From Anaerolineaceae bacterium (GTDB taxonomy: Bacteria; Chloroflexota; Anaerolineae; Aggregatilineales; Phototrophicaceae), in assembly GCA_026708325.1 (NCBI GenBank), contig JAPOVC010000028.1, positions 182,749 to 246,748 of the forward strand: a stretch of 64,000 nucleotides of DNA. The letters are read 5' to 3'. This document shows, in pieces, positions 45,792 to 51,195 of the stretch; the stretch's first letter is position 1, and the number at the start of each line of letters is the position of its first letter. A program made the translations under genes and the position numbers. Under the pieces are notes generated by a model. That model was not told the DNA's origin, made no database searches, and saw only the letters and a list, made by a program, of their open reading frames with translations.

Positions 45792-46822
45792 CCACCCCAG
45801 ACCTGCTCAAAGACACGCATCCAGTTGCCGCCCAGCAGGGCGGTCAGTTCCTCTTGGGAAAAGCCGCGCCTGAGCAGCTCGGCCACAAACACGGGCATCT
45901 GGTCCGCGCTCTGACAGTCCTCAATCCAGTTGTGGAGCATGTCCGGCCCGATGGAGGATTCGACCAGAGCGTGTACGCTCACTTCCCGCAGCGTGCCCTC
46001 CAGAAAGTCCGCGCCGATGCCGAAATGCTCGATGCCCACCAGTTCGACCATGTGCTGCAGGTGGTCGGCCATGCGCGCGCAGGTGGGCGGGTCGGAAATG
46101 TAGCCGCCATAAAAGTTGAGGCCGATGACGCCGCCGCAGTCCGCCACGGCGCGGATCTGGTCGTCGGTCAGATTGCGCGGGTGGTCATGCACGGCGCGGG
46201 CGTTGCTGTGCGAGGCGACCAGCGGTCCCTCCACGATGTCGATGGCATCCCAAAAGCCGGGTTCCGCCAGGTGGCTGACGTCAAAGATAACCTTGCTGCG
46301 GCACAGGTCGCGCAGGGCTTCCTGGCCGGCGGCGGTCAGACCGCCCGGATTGCGGACGCCGGTGCCATCGGCGAAGGCATTGCGCCGCTCCCAGGTGAAA
46401 GCGACCATGCGGATGCCGAATCGGCAGAGCGCGCGCAGCACGCGGGCATCGCCGCCGAGACCGTCGCAACCCTCAAGGGCCAGCAGGCCGGCGATCTTGC
46501 CTGCGTCGGTGATGCGCTGAATGTCCGCCACGCTGTTGGCCAGTTCCATGCGGCTGTCGTCGCTGGTGAGGTCTTCCTCCGCGGCCTGCAAATGGCGCAG
46601 GATTTCGCGCAGGCCCAGGCCGGGTAGAAAACGGTCATCGACGTAGACCGGCAAGACCTGAACATTGATGCCGCCCGCCTCCATGATCGGGGCCCAGTAA
46701 CCTGAGAGCGCGCCGCGCTCCCCCCGATGGTGGCGGGACATGACGTCCATCAAAATGTCGTGATGGGAATCGACGAACAACAGGTCCTGACAGACCTCCT
46801 GGGCTTGCTGCAGAAATTGCAT
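45788..46822 (-). CDS. Membrane dipeptidase homolog (peptidase family M19)
   Basis: A 344-residue zinc dipeptidase of the renal dipeptidase family, cleaving dipeptides including those with a C-terminal D-residue. The first metal motif is VDSHHDILMDV (H20, D22). ALEGCDGLGGDARVLRAL carries the bridging Glu, SHSNARAVHDHPRNLTDDQI a metal His, and GADFLEG the later Asp region. The ATG at 46822 follows GGGAGGGAGCC; the longer frame to 47203 is only antisense oxidase code. No signal peptide is seen, so it should be cytoplasmic. It is divergent from the FAD oxidase, with 57 bp between starts. Confidence 0.9.
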   Translation of the reverse strand: MQFLQQAQEVCQDLLFVDSHHDILMDVMSRHHRGERGALSGYWAPIMEAGGINVQVLPVYVDDRFLPGLGLREILRHLQAAEEDLTSDDSRMELANSVADIQRITDAGKIAGLLALEGCDGLGGDARVLRALCRFGIRMVAFTWERRNAFADGTGVRNPGGLTAAGQEALRDLCRSKVIFDVSHLAEPGFWDAIDIVEGPLVASHSNARAVHDHPRNLTDDQIRAVADCGGVIGLNFYGGYISDPPTCARMADHLQHMVELVGIEHFGIGADFLEGTLREVSVHALVESSIGPDMLHNWIEDCQSADQMPVFVAELLRRGFSQEELTALLGGNWMRVFEQVWGG

Positions 46823-46879
46823 GGCTCCCTCCCGGCAGGCTATGCTCGCGCGCAGGAGTATGCCACAAGGAGAGCGCGA

Positions 46880-48001
46880 GTGCCTGCCTGCAGCGCAAAG
46901 GAGAGCGCCGACGTCGTGGTCATCGGAGCGGGCATTCAGGGCCTCAGCGCAGCCTGGCATTTGGCGAAATTCGGCATACGCGACGTGGCCCTGGTTGAAA
47001 AGTCCACCGTGGGCAGCGGCTCCTCGCGCTGGTCCGCGTCGATGCTGATGAAGCAGATGTGGGGCGAATGGCAGCAGCGCTTTTCGGCCTACACCTTCGA
47101 ACGCTACGCGGCCTTCGCCGAAGACACCGGCTTCGACGCCGGTTTCGTGCGCACGGGTACCCTGACCCTGGTGACGCCGGACGTGGCGGAGCAGGAACAA
47201 CACTTCGTGGACTTGCGGCGCAAGTACGGCGTCGAGACCCAGGTGCTCACGCCGGACGAGGTTGTCCGCTGGCTACCCTTGCTTTCCCCGGACGAAATGA
47301 CTTTCGGCGTCTACGGCCCGGATGATGGCGTGCTGGATACGCCCAACATCCTGCGCGGCTGGCGCCATTCCGCGCAAGCCATGGGCGTGACGATCCACGA
47401 AGGCCGGCGCGCGACCGGACTGGAAATCGAAAGCGGGCGCATCGCCGCCGTGCACACGACGGCGGGCCCCATCGCCACGCGTTGCGCCGTAAACGCGGCT
47501 GGTGCAGATGCCGACGAGGTCGGCGCCTGGGCCGGGTTGCGTATCCCGCTACTCAACCGGGTGCGCAACATCTTTCTGGTCGAGAGACCGCCGCAACTGA
47601 AGTCCAGAATCTACGTGATGGACGCCGCCACGCACTGGTACTTTCGCAGCGATAACGGCGAGGTGCTGGTGGGCATGGGCGCGCGCGAGCATGCGACAGT
47701 GCAGGATCGCCCGGACATGGACTACTGGCCGGAAATGCGCGCGATGTGCCTGCGCAAGGCCCCGGCCCTGGCACAGGCCCGTATCGTCGGCGGCTGGGCC
47801 GGCATTCGGCCGCTGACTCCGGACGACAGGCCGGTCCTGGGCCCGGTTGCGGAAGTGGAGGGTTTCATCAACAACTGCGGCTGGGGCGGCGTGGGCATCA
47901 TGAATGCGCCGGTCGGCGGCCAGCTGGTCGCGGAGCAGATTCATGACGGCAGGACGAGCACCTTCGATACAGGGCCTTTCCTTTTGTCACGCTTCAACTG
48001 A
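46880..48001 (+). CDS. FAD-dependent amine/amino-acid oxidoreductase (DadA/sarcosine oxidase type)
   Basis: A 373-residue DAO-family flavoprotein. It starts at GTG 46880 behind AAGGAG; the frame is open upstream but lies in the dipeptidase. The Rossmann FAD motif is VVVIGAGIQGLSAAWHL (11-28), SGSSRWSASMLMKQMW resembles the FAD-pyrophosphate loop of sarcosine oxidase beta subunits, and the end GWAGIRPLTPDDRPVLGPV is the classical DadA/SoxB C-terminal FAD contact. It probably oxidises N-methyl or D-amino acids. Its place beside a dipeptidase suggests peptide-derived amine catabolism. Confidence 0.88.
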   Translation: MPACSAKESADVVVIGAGIQGLSAAWHLAKFGIRDVALVEKSTVGSGSSRWSASMLMKQMWGEWQQRFSAYTFERYAAFAEDTGFDAGFVRTGTLTLVTPDVAEQEQHFVDLRRKYGVETQVLTPDEVVRWLPLLSPDEMTFGVYGPDDGVLDTPNILRGWRHSAQAMGVTIHEGRRATGLEIESGRIAAVHTTAGPIATRCAVNAAGADADEVGAWAGLRIPLLNRVRNIFLVERPPQLKSRIYVMDAATHWYFRSDNGEVLVGMGAREHATVQDRPDMDYWPEMRAMCLRKAPALAQARIVGGWAGIRPLTPDDRPVLGPVAEVEGFINNCGWGGVGIMNAPVGGQLVAEQIHDGRTSTFDTGPFLLSRFN

Positions 48002-48049
48002 AATGGGTCGGCCCGGACTCCTAGCCACTACCTGCTTTCATAAACTCTA

Positions 48050-48079
48050 CTTAACAATTCTTTAAATTCATGTTAAAGT
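48050..48079 (+). promoter_or_regulatory. Pho-box-like triple repeat upstream of DUF4956 gene
   Basis: Three 8-mers, CTTAACAA (48050-48057), TTTAAATT (48061-48068) and GTTAAAGT (48072-48079), separated by 3 bp each, so TTAA recurs every 11 bp on one helix face. This spacing and core match the layout of PhoB/PhoP-family binding boxes in cyanobacteria and Bacillus. The last unit ends 71 bp before the start codon. It stands out in an otherwise GC-rich sequence and may also contain the promoter. Confidence 0.5.
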
Positions 48080-48150
48080 CGGCGGGCGGGGTCGGCCACC
48101 TGTTGCCACGCAACCGGCCCGGGTTCGGTTTAGCGGGAAAAGCAGCGACA

Positions 48151-48723
48151 ATGACGTTATTTGCCGAGTATCTGATTCATTTTCTGATCAACCAACTGGT
48201 TCTCGCTTCCTTTGTGATCATCAATTACAACCCGCGCAAGCACAGAAGCAACAATTCCGTTGCCCTGCTGGTGATCGGCGCCCTGGTTTACGTCGTCATC
48301 ACCCTCATTGTGCGTTATGAGATCGGGCTAGGCATCGGATTTGGCATCTTTGCCATCTTCTCCCTGTTGCGCTTTCGCACGGTGGCCATCAACCTGCGCG
48401 ACATGACCTACCTGTTCGCTGTGGTGGCGGTCTCCTTCGCCAACGCTTTCCTGCTCTACAACAGGGAATATGCCGGAACGCTGGCAGTTGCCCTGGTGCT
48501 GTTTGCAACCATGTTGCTGCTGGAAAAGGGAAGGCTGTTGCCCGTTTACAGCGAGATTTCCCTGACCTGCAACAACCTCGAACTGTTGCGGCCGGAGCAG
48601 CGACCGGCCTTGCTGGCGGATTTGCAGGAGCGCACCGGACTGAAGGTTGAGCATCTGGTCATCGACAGCATCAACCTTCGCAGCGGCACGGCGCGAATAC
48701 AGGTCTACATTGCCGAGGAATGA
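48151..48723 (+). CDS. DUF4956 membrane protein
   Basis: A 190-residue protein with about four transmembrane helices in residues 1-120, then a ~70-residue soluble ferredoxin-like end (LLADLQERTGLKVEHLVIDS). The central motif FSLLRFRTVAINLRDMTYLF (about 74-93) is the DUF4956 hallmark. ATG 48151 fits the membrane topology; an ATG at 48070 in the same frame lies within the Pho-like box and was rejected. DUF4956 genes often neighbour VTC-type polyphosphate polymerases, which fits the predicted phosphate box, but no such enzyme is in the window. Function is not established. Confidence 0.85.
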   Translation: MTLFAEYLIHFLINQLVLASFVIINYNPRKHRSNNSVALLVIGALVYVVITLIVRYEIGLGIGFGIFAIFSLLRFRTVAINLRDMTYLFAVVAVSFANAFLLYNREYAGTLAVALVLFATMLLLEKGRLLPVYSEISLTCNNLELLRPEQRPALLADLQERTGLKVEHLVIDSINLRSGTARIQVYIAEE

Positions 48724-48824
48724 TGGCCGTGCCGCGTGTCCCTGCTAGGGACAGTTCGGCTCCTGAAATCCGTCCTGGCGGCTCTGCACTACCCTACAAA
48801 TTTGACGGCGTGAACCATTTGAGC

Positions 48825-48846
48825 GAACCAGAATGATTCCTGGTTC
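48825..48846 (-). terminator. Hairpin at the end of the M24 peptidase gene
   Basis: GAACCAG (48825-48831) and CTGGTTC (48840-48846) form a perfect 7-bp stem with an 8-nt loop that overlaps the M24 stop codon. It lies between convergent genes. No U-tract, so termination is only a possibility. Confidence 0.3.
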
Positions 48847-49951
48847 AGCCGATGATGCGCAAATCGCGTGGAAACGAGGTCAGGGACTCGAGACCGTCGT
48901 CGCTAATCACCACATTGTCCTCGACGCGCACACCCAGGACGTCGGTCTTGTAGAGGCCGGGTTCGATGGTGAAGACCATGCCGGGCTCAAGCAGGGCCTC
49001 GTTGCCACGCGTGATCCACGGCCCTTCGTGAACGTCAAGGCCCAGGCCGTGTCCGGTGCGGTGCAGGATGTAGTCGCCGTAGCCGGCGTCCAGCAGCGTC
49101 TGCGTGACAATGGCGTCCAACTCGCCGCAAGGCAGGCCCGGCCGCGCCGTCTGGCGACCGACTGTGTTGGCATGCAGCACGGCGGCGTACAGGGCGCGCG
49201 CTTCGTCGCTCGCTTCTTCAATGAAGAATGTGCGCGTGATATCCGCCGGATAGCCATCGATGACAGTGCCGAAATCGAAGATCAGGGCGTCGCCGGCCTC
49301 CAGGGGGGCGTCGTCGCGGATCTTGCCGTGGGGACGCGAACTGTTGTCGCCACCCAGCACCAGCGGTTCGAAGGACAGGCCCTGGCCACCCAGTTCACTC
49401 ATCTGGTTGATGAGGAAATTGGCCACCTCGCGTTCCGTCATGCCGGCGCGCAGCCAGGTGACGGTGTTCTCGAGCGCCTGTTCCGAGATGCGAATGGCGC
49501 GTCGCAGGGCCTCGATTTCCTCCGCTTCCTTACGCAGGCGAATGGAGGAGATCAGCTCCTGGGCGTCCATCAGGGCCGCGTCCGGCGCATTGCGGCGGAT
49601 GGCCTCGGATTCGAAGAATCGCATGTTTTGGCCTTCGATGCCGATACGGCCGTCCAGCAGTTCCAGATGCGCCAGCGCGGCGGCGAAAGCGCCCTCGAAA
49701 CCATCGGCATCGGCCCAGCGGAAGTGGTCGGCTTCAAAGCCCTTGCTGGCGAAGAAATCCGCCTCGAGGTCGGGAATGACGATGGCAGGCCGGCCGTCGC
49801 GCGGCACAAAGAGCACGATGGGGCGCTCCATAACATGGTGAACGGAGCCGGTCAGATAGAAAAAGCCGGGGCCCGGAATGAGCGCCGCGGCATCAAGGCG
49901 ATTGTCGGCCAGGACCTTCTGCAAGTGCTGCAAACGTTTTTCGGAAGGCAT
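48845..49951 (-). CDS. Xaa-Pro peptidase (M24, PepQ/aminopeptidase P-like)
   Basis: A 368-residue M24 metallopeptidase that removes residues N-terminal to proline. The creatinase-type N-domain covers ~1-130, then the pita-bread domain with five metal ligands: D226 and D237 (DFGTVIDGYPADITR), H301 (RTGHGLG), E330 (FTIEPG) and E344 (VRVEDN). All are conserved, so activity is expected. There is no signal peptide. It starts one base after the stop of the third EthD-like gene, so it is co-transcribed with that small gene family. Confidence 0.93.
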   Translation of the reverse strand: MPSEKRLQHLQKVLADNRLDAAALIPGPGFFYLTGSVHHVMERPIVLFVPRDGRPAIVIPDLEADFFASKGFEADHFRWADADGFEGAFAAALAHLELLDGRIGIEGQNMRFFESEAIRRNAPDAALMDAQELISSIRLRKEAEEIEALRRAIRISEQALENTVTWLRAGMTEREVANFLINQMSELGGQGLSFEPLVLGGDNSSRPHGKIRDDAPLEAGDALIFDFGTVIDGYPADITRTFFIEEASDEARALYAAVLHANTVGRQTARPGLPCGELDAIVTQTLLDAGYGDYILHRTGHGLGLDVHEGPWITRGNEALLEPGMVFTIEPGLYKTDVLGVRVEDNVVISDDGLESLTSFPRDLRIIG

Positions 49952-49952
49952 G

Positions 49953-50306
49953 TCAGGGCATCTCCACGCTATTGTCGGTCCCGGTCAAAATCTCGCTGAC
50001 GAGAAAAAGGGCGTCCGAAGTCTTGTTCCCGATCTCCCCGACCTGGGCCTGCAAGCCTTCATCATAGAAGCTGCTTTCGAAGGCCTCGCGCGTCTCCCAT
50101 TCGGCCACGGTCATGAAGCGGAAGGGCAGGACGTTGGGTGCCCGACCCTGACCCGGCAAGGGGGATTCCGTCACCAGAGCAAAGTCGGTGCGAAGAACGC
50201 CTGCCATGGCCGCCGCAGGGTCGCGACGTTCGCTCTGGCGCAGTCGCAAGAATGCAGCCTCGTCACTGCCTGGCAGCAAATTGTAAAACACGGTCAGGCG
50301 AATCAC
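49953..50306 (-). CDS. EthD/ABM-like dimeric alpha-beta barrel protein, copy 3
   Basis: A 117-residue single-domain protein, MIRLTVFYNLLPGSDEAAFL onward, of the ferredoxin-like dimeric barrel group (EthD, antibiotic-biosynthesis monooxygenase-like). The most diverged of three tandem copies: it has LRLRQSERRDPAAAMAG where the others have LRWRLGEHQEANAS-type sequence. It keeps LRTDFALVTESPLPGQGRAP and LPFRFMTVAEWETREAFE. It sits next to the M24 peptidase. Role unknown; members of this fold act as small oxygenases, isomerases or binding proteins. Confidence 0.75.
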   Translation of the reverse strand: MIRLTVFYNLLPGSDEAAFLRLRQSERRDPAAAMAGVLRTDFALVTESPLPGQGRAPNVLPFRFMTVAEWETREAFESSFYDEGLQAQVGEIGNKTSDALFLVSEILTGTDNSVEMP

Positions 50307-50397
50307 GGTAGTCTCCCGACGGCAGCCATCATCGACGTTGCAGTCCTGACAGGCAGCGACCCGCAGCCAGGCCTACTGACCGGTCCCGGATGAACCG

Positions 50398-50751
50398 TCA
50401 GGACGCATCGGTCCGATTGTCCGTCTCGGTCAGGATTTCAGTGACGAGAAACACGGCGTCAGAAATCCGTTCCACATTTTCCCTGAGTTCATTTTGCAGA
50501 CCCTCTTCGTAAAAGCTGGCCTCGAACTCCTCACGAGTCTCCCATTCGGCCACGGTCATGAAGCGGAAAGGCAGGGCATTGGGCGCACGTCCCTGACCGG
50601 GCAGCGGCGATTCCGTCACCTGGCCAAAGTCCGTCCGCAGAACGCCTGGCATGGAGGCATTGGCCTCCTGGTGTTCACCCAGTCGCCAACGCAGAAACTC
50701 TTCCTCGTCGCTGCCGGGCGGCAGGTTGTAGAGCACGGTCAATCGAATCAC
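50398..50751 (-). CDS. EthD/ABM-like dimeric alpha-beta barrel protein, copy 2
   Basis: A 117-residue middle copy, very close to copy 1 in the first 75 residues (MIRLTVLYNLPPGSDEEEFL, then LRTDFGQVTESPLPGQGRAP). It differs in the second half, EEGLQNELRENVERISDAVF against DEGRQAILAEDVKRISDAVF in copy 1. The SD is AGGAGGCATC-like, just before the ATG. A conserved His in GEHQEAN could be catalytic, as in other barrel oxygenases, but copy 3 lacks it. Spacing to the neighbours is 90 and 91 bp. Confidence 0.75.
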   Translation of the reverse strand: MIRLTVLYNLPPGSDEEEFLRWRLGEHQEANASMPGVLRTDFGQVTESPLPGQGRAPNALPFRFMTVAEWETREEFEASFYEEGLQNELRENVERISDAVFLVTEILTETDNRTDAS

Positions 50752-50841
50752 GATGCCTCCTGTGGTCAGGTCCCGGGCGTAACAGGCTGGCGGCCGGCGA
50801 AGAATCCTTGCAGGGGATGCGGGCAGTTGGCGGGCGACACG

Positions 50842-51195
50842 TCAGGGCGTCCCCTCGCGGTTGTCGGTCTGCGTCAGAATTTCGGTGACGAGAAAAACCG
50901 CGTCCGAGATGCGTTTGACGTCTTCCGCCAGGATCGCCTGACGACCTTCATCATAAAAGCTGTGTTCGAATTCCTCACGGGTATCGTATTCGGCGACGGT
51001 CATGAAGCGGAAGGGCAGGGCATTGGGCGCCCGTCCCTGGCCCGGCAGGGGCGATTCCGTGACCTGGCCAAAGTCTGTTCGCAGCACGCCGGGTCTTGAG
51101 GCATTGGACTCCTGATGTTCGCCGAGGCGCCAGCGCAGAAACTCTTCCTCGTCGCTGCCGGGGGGCAGGTTGTAGAGCACGGTCAGCCGAATCAC
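50842..51195 (-). CDS. EthD/ABM-like dimeric alpha-beta barrel protein, copy 1
   Basis: A 117-residue first copy of the triplet, starting behind AGGAGGCC. It has YDTREEFEHSFYDEG where copies 2 and 3 have WETRE(E/A)FE. Same length and core as the other two. It is divergent from the sugar-binding protein at 51317, with the TTGCAA repeats between them. The three are co-directional with the M24 peptidase and are probably one transcript. Confidence 0.75.
   Translation of the reverse strand: MIRLTVLYNLPPGSDEEEFLRWRLGEHQESNASRPGVLRTDFGQVTESPLPGQGRAPNALPFRFMTVAEYDTREEFEHSFYDEGRQAILAEDVKRISDAVFLVTEILTQTDNREGTP

Follow-up and report, generated by a model that had tools for sequence, protein, structure and literature searches.

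A four-unit array of 8-bp repeats, three of them TTAA-centred, lies upstream of a gene for a DUF4956 membrane protein in the window, that is, the whole 64-kb stretch of DNA analysed here. We read this array as a probable PhoB-type operator of the cyanobacterial (SphR) type through which this DUF4956 gene, which stands alone, would belong to the Pho regulon. We give this reading a probability of about 0.72.

Four tandem units upstream of the DUF4956 gene

The original prediction described three TTAA-centred 8-mers with 3-bp gaps and an 11-bp period before a DUF4956 gene, and that description proved exact. On the forward strand, positions 48050-48079 read CTTAACAA ttc TTTAAATT cat GTTAAAGT, and the TTAA cores begin at 48051, 48062 and 48073. 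A fourth, weaker unit, CATAAACT at 48039-48046, keeps the same period and lies inside a stretch conserved in the sister genome G001 (13 of 14 positions identical over 48037-48050). The repeat is really a four-unit array with units at 48039, 48050, 48061 and 48072. It therefore combines the 8-bp direct repeats and 3-bp linkers of a Pho box, four in tandem where at least two are expected. Outside the TTAA core, the units bear little likeness to each other. The pattern TTAA-N7,8-TTAA-N7,8-TTAA matched once in the window, and none of 100 dinucleotide shuffles contained a match. The DUF4956 box was also the sole match to TTAA-N7-TTAA-N7-TTAA in the whole own genome, G000 (3,308,062 bases in 29 contigs, 96.5% complete), where its palindromic TTAA cores cause it to be reported on either strand.

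We scored the array with an 8-mer matrix built from the Pho-box triples in Table 1 of PMC1906773 (27 of the 30 rows, three duplicates dropped), which derives from phosphate-linked genes of cyanobacteria, a lineage other than the host's. The units at 48039-48046, 48050-48057, 48061-48068 and 48072-48079 scored 8.9, 9.0, 11.8 and 7.2 bits, respectively. The best three-unit match in the window was 48039-48068 (29.6 bits, next independent site 9.1 bits) and the best four-unit match was 48039-48079 (36.9 compared to 4.7 bits), a margin that supports the Pho-box-like reading proposed originally; the three units first described (48050-48079) score 28.0 bits. In 100 random 64-kb sequences from a first-order Markov model, no three-unit match attained 28.0 bits and no four-unit match 36.9 bits, the maxima being 18.6 and 14.7 bits. 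Likewise, 73 upstream regions were compared from 13 own-genome loci, which total 171 kb, include two that overlap and were in part chosen for their repeats; the DUF4956 promoter ranked first whether two (20.8 bits), three (29.6 bits) or four units (36.9 bits) were scored. Second ranks went to ugpB for two units (19.0 bits) and to pstS for three and four (10.6 and 15.1 bits). The match to published boxes is thus above chance.

The gene downstream occupies 48151-48723 on the forward strand and codes for a 190-aa protein assigned to DUF4956 by PF16316 (119.7 bits, gathering score 30.6), for which the structure model predicts five helices plus an alpha/beta domain at the C terminus. The gene is solitary, flanked by genes for an FAD oxidoreductase and an M24 peptidase. 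We take the start to be 48151 rather than the ATG at 48070, since the own and sister sequences differ upstream of 48151 by frame-breaking indels, two bases net; the two proteins are 97% identical. The structure model (mean pLDDT 75.6, pTM 0.61) gave no Foldseek match in the PDB at E≤0.001, and VIA-align returned unrelated proteins with Z at most 6.7, and we therefore assigned no function on the basis of the fold. A possible likeness of DUF4956 to MgtC was dropped, as MgtC is absent among the structure matches listed. Further along the window, three tandem, closely similar 117-aa ORFs with GTG starts lie on the reverse strand at 49953-51195.

TTAA pairs at phosphate genes and a candidate regulator pair

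A scan of the genome for similar repeats at phosphate genes, suggested originally as a check, found them before pstC (in three congeneric genomes), pstS and ugpB. The absence of such repeats, named beforehand as a refuting outcome, was thus not observed. In the own genome, pstB, pstA and pstC score above the NCBIfam cut-offs. The two PF12849 genes that adjoin them are read as pstS; three further PF12849 matches lie elsewhere, one of them below cut-off. The gene ugpB occurs twice, followed by ugpA and ugpE. UgpB was the only NCBIfam match for its two genes (136.7 and 154.5 bits), while UgpA (202.9 bits) and UgpE (208.6 bits) were the best matches for theirs, all three below the curated cut-offs. 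No PhoU, which had been named for the scan as well, was found in the own genome or in any of the 13 own-family genomes searched, and PstB was used as the marker of pst loci in its place.

In the own genome, TTAA-N7-TTAA occurs at five places: the DUF4956 box (two), pstC, the second ugpB and C23:9206. The congener G002 has no DUF4956 match, and its two sites lie one at pstC and one at the ugp locus. By itself the pattern shows no enrichment, with 5, 6, 2 and 1 occurrences in G000, G001, G002 and G013, while its reversed control has 10, 9, 20 and 43. The G013 site and a G001 site at C11:271364 lie, by our reading, in or by glycosyltransferase-like ORFs. A wider search of the own genome for TTAA pairs with 5 to 20 bases between them listed 27 pairs, compared to 215 for the reversed control AATT...AATT. 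This listing (nearest partner at 9-24 bp) seems to hold nearest partners only, as the outer DUF4956 pair at 22 bp is absent from it. By spacing, two pairs each were listed at 9, 10 and 20 bp, five each at 11 and 18 bp, four at 22 bp, and one each at 12, 13, 14, 15, 17, 21 and 23 bp. Seven of the 27 lie at DUF4956 (two), pstC (two), pstS (two, both 22 bp) and ugpB (one), and these genes account for six of the nine pairs at 11 or 22 bp. The other three precede genes for a Trm112-like protein, an HSDR_N-domain protein and an S41 peptidase.

All three congeners, G000, G001 and G002, retain the pstC box (CTTAATCRSGAKTTAACRC ... CTTAACCT ... TATACT). The pstS and ugpB boxes are both conserved in G001, and the G002 counterpart of the ugpB locus has a TTAA pair. 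In addition, surE, whose product belongs to a nucleotidase family, is preceded by TTTACC-N5-TTAACC in three congeneric genomes (own site L146, G000:C13:3185-3200). The regions upstream of pstS1 and ugpB1 hold no box. By the matrix, the pstC and surE boxes reach 13.7 bits with two units, less than three other matches of 14.6-16.1 bits, one of which precedes an exonuclease/helicase gene (L199) and looks false. The pstS box is weak (P = 0.026 for two units, P = 0.006 for four), and the top score of the ugpB box falls on the other strand from ugpB itself. What lends weight to these boxes is their conservation, together with pst having been named beforehand. A conserved two-unit TTTAACATGGTTTTAAATC site scoring 18.5 bits by the Pho-box matrix was also observed before the Trm112-like gene (G000:C23:9205-9223, L123; G001:C12:98988-99006), and no phosphate link was found for that gene.

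Five PhoB/OmpR-type regulators of the own genome match the PhoB model with E up to 1e-50, all below cut-off. For one of them, the C3 regulator (C3:3933-4619), PhoB is the best NCBIfam model (248.8 bits, cut-off 296.2; next MtrA, 226.1 bits). A PAS-type kinase encoded about 1 kb downstream has PnpS (219.6 bits, cut-off 400) and PhoR (202.7 bits, cut-off 334.2) as its best models. A PhoB/PhoR-type pair is thus encoded, with scores below the model cut-offs, and we infer that it is the pair acting at the DUF4956 box. By tblastn, orthologues of the C3 pair occur with pst genes in G044:C80 (63.9/40.7%) and G043 (58.2/38.4%), on contigs that also hold PhoU matches, and beside phoU in G037 (59.3/38.7%). 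Among four other stretches searched, L200, L201 and L204 held no close C3 pair and L205 gave distant matches alone. In these order-level relatives, the best three-unit matrix match of a locus lay before phoU in G042:C1 (28.1 bits; P = 0.002, the floor of this upstream-region test), before pstS in G043 (P = 0.014; five units P = 0.002) and, weakly, before phoU in G037 (P = 0.018). The matrix found no site before pst of G044:C51 or phoU of G042:C3, and in G038 and G044:C80 the promoter seemingly lies off the contig.

DUF4956 promoters of relatives and alternative readings

DUF4956 gave 12 matches in 10 of 61 genomes. The polyphosphate argument of the original prediction, that DUF4956 proteins often sit beside VTC-type polymerases, holds in relatives and fails in the own genome. 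A VTC gene lies directly upstream of DUF4956 in all seven loci examined, taken from eight matches outside G000, G001 and G013 with one partial match (L010) left out. In G000, 96.5% complete, no VTC polymerase (PF09359) matched at E up to 0.001, and the family is present in 2 of 21 genomes searched. Because VTC was not found in the own genome, the argument from polyphosphate neighbours is indirect.

Four of the seven VTC-DUF4956 promoters, from four genera (L207, L210, L018 and L017), share an 11-bp repeat, CTGAAYANNTTCTGAAYA, three exactly and one with two mismatches, as a direct repeat upstream of the VTC gene. It occurred nowhere else in the 214 kb of these loci (overlaps counted twice), nor at pst or phoU in the loci scanned, and its reversed control had no occurrence. 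The cyanobacterial matrix gave three-unit P values of 0.010, 0.214, 0.098, 0.004, 0.289, 0.894 and 0.004 for the seven promoters, and these CTGAA-type repeats are at most candidate PhoB sites. The G001 paralogue and the G013 gene also have periodic arrays upstream (three units, P = 0.002 each). The motif CTTWACA-N4-TTTAA occurs at three sites in four whole genomes, one in G000 and two in G001, each before a DUF4956 gene. Judging from these promoter sequences, operators with 11-bp repeats may be common for DUF4956 operons.

The array could be a PhoB/OmpR-type operator for another winged-helix regulator that answers a signal other than phosphate, a reading we find unlikely. The five PhoB-like regulators, all below cut-off and one encoded less than 7 kb from the ugp box, would provide for it, as would the separate repeat of the four VTC-DUF4956 operons with its absence from the pst and phoU loci scanned. 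Tandem TTTAC-N6-TTTAC sites point the same way: they precede two putative secreted-protein genes beside a PPK2 gene (L127/L182, G000:C4:87587 and 88777), have similar counterparts at G001:C10:494256 and G002:C176:39094, and may serve another OmpR-family regulator. However, the listed TTAA pairs at 11 and 22 bp concentrate at pst and ugp, we saw no other function common to the matches, and the matrix that singles out the DUF4956 array comes from phosphate-linked genes.

The array also coincides with a predicted promoter. A scan of 46500-50000 found a single sigma-70-like site (shuffles mean 0.8), with TTAACA at 48051-48056, a 17-bp spacer and TAAAGT at 48074-48079 on the forward strand, preceded by TG; the hexamers agree with the consensus at 9 of 12 positions and share bases with the box. 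Hexamers so spaced (16-18 bp) are those of a sigma-70 promoter and are compatible with an operator on the same bases. An ordinary sigma-70 promoter in an AT-rich patch, with the outer TTAA cores as parts of its -35 and -10 hexamers and the period a coincidence, is a less probable reading still. The scan finds exactly such a promoter, which alone could account for conservation. Moreover, and also to the disadvantage of the operator reading, generic lag-11 self-similarity fell short of significance at the own site, where two window sizes gave P = 0.243 and P = 0.150 and lag 6 was the best. It was significant at the orthologous G001 site (P = 0.043 and 0.007), and three of 11 upstream regions (the G001 orthologue, L007 and L009) reached P≤0.01 in at least one window size; we do not build on this test since the own site misses significance. 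What speaks against a plain promoter is the extent of the conserved island, which spans 48037-48080 on the forward strand, holds the entire box and is identical to G001 at 42 of 44 positions, compared to 26 of 35 (48002-48036) and 39 of 56 alignment columns (48081-48133) in its flanks. Conservation extends to the core within the spacer, TTTAAATT, and to the upstream unit, CATAAACT, so that the stretch exceeds the needs of a bare promoter. Furthermore, the four-unit score went unmatched in the random 64-kb sequences, and TTAA pairs are rare, with 7 of the 27 listed at DUF4956 and three phosphate-linked genes.

That the likeness of DUF4956 promoters is merely inherited, functionless, from an ancestral duplication is very improbable: G001 does carry a DUF4956 paralogue, separated by about 2 kb and preceded by a duplicate of the upstream gene's 3′ end, but the flanks of the orthologues now share about 70-74% identity and the box has not diverged with them, and G013, of another genus, has a different yet periodic array. 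In G001:C8 (L014, 7954-10675), a CotH gene and the second DUF4956 gene lie between two copies, of about 85 bp, of the 3′ end of the upstream oxidoreductase gene. The own genome has a single such piece (window 47910-47994), with neither CotH nor a second DUF4956 gene there. Either a recombinational loss or a gain through duplication would fit this difference.

A proposed model for phosphate control of DUF4956

According to our preferred reading, a PhoB-type operator, the four-unit array of 11-bp tandem repeats would act where it overlaps the promoter of the stand-alone DUF4956 gene. As with PhoB and SphR, each unit would be expected to take one winged-helix domain, and four units two dimers. 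Upon phosphate limitation, the PAS-type kinase would phosphorylate the PhoB-like C3 regulator, which would bind the array head to tail with one DNA-binding domain per unit, recruit RNA polymerase at the weak TTAACA/TAAAGT promoter and also act at pstCAB, pstS and ugpB. Units 1-3 would put the regulator on and upstream of the -35 hexamer, next to sigma region 4. As unit 4 falls on TAAAGT, either the true -10 would differ or the last unit would go unused. Both the binding of the regulator and activation at the DUF4956 box are inferred, activation being the likelier direction because pst and ugp genes are normally induced by starvation. DUF4956 itself might help to handle phosphate or polyphosphate at the membrane; a role in phosphate or polyphosphate transfer, suggested by the VTC partners, is a guess.

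PMC1906773 describes the cyanobacterial Pho box bound by SphR as CTTAACCT, an 8-bp unit with 3-bp linkers in at least three tandem units. The DUF4956 array resembles it in unit length, linker, TTAA core, presence of at least three tandem units and, as in that account, position upstream of phosphate-metabolism genes. It differs in lineage and in having four units, and DUF4956 is not named in Table 1 of PMC1906773. The E. coli PhoB box, as given in the same source, consists of 8-bp repeats with an A/T-rich 3-bp linker and lies 10 bp upstream of the -10. The array shares with it 11-bp direct repeats at a promoter, whereas its TTAA-type core departs from the consensus given there, and its position would depart from that spacing if TAAAGT, which unit 4 overlaps, is the -10. 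VTC-DUF4956 operons, as well as cotH-PPP-DUF4956 groups beside pel clusters, are among the arrangements described in PMC7112168. The DUF4956 family is shared with these, and in G001 the second copy adjoins a CotH gene; unlike the VTC operons of that source, the own genome has no detected VTC and its DUF4956 gene is alone. Titles retrieved in a limited literature search on Pho box, Chloroflexi and PhoB included none reporting such a box, which does not prove absence, and titles in further searches included none on DUF4956. We regard the array as an element of a familiar type at a new location, before a gene whose function is unknown.

It is conceivable, although we hold it rather doubtful, that DUF4956 is a phosphate-starvation membrane protein across the class, with VTC-linked and stand-alone genes alike under 11-bp PhoB-family operators and VTC as an optional partner. 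Where VTC is lacking, DUF4956 would, on this view, still move phosphate or polyphosphate across the membrane. For the organism, our findings suggest a cyanobacterial-type Pho box, together with a PhoB/PhoR pair and without detectable PhoU, in an uncultured lineage of the Chloroflexota. For the family, whose function is unknown according to its Pfam name, membership of a solitary gene in the phosphate regulon would point to a role independent of VTC.
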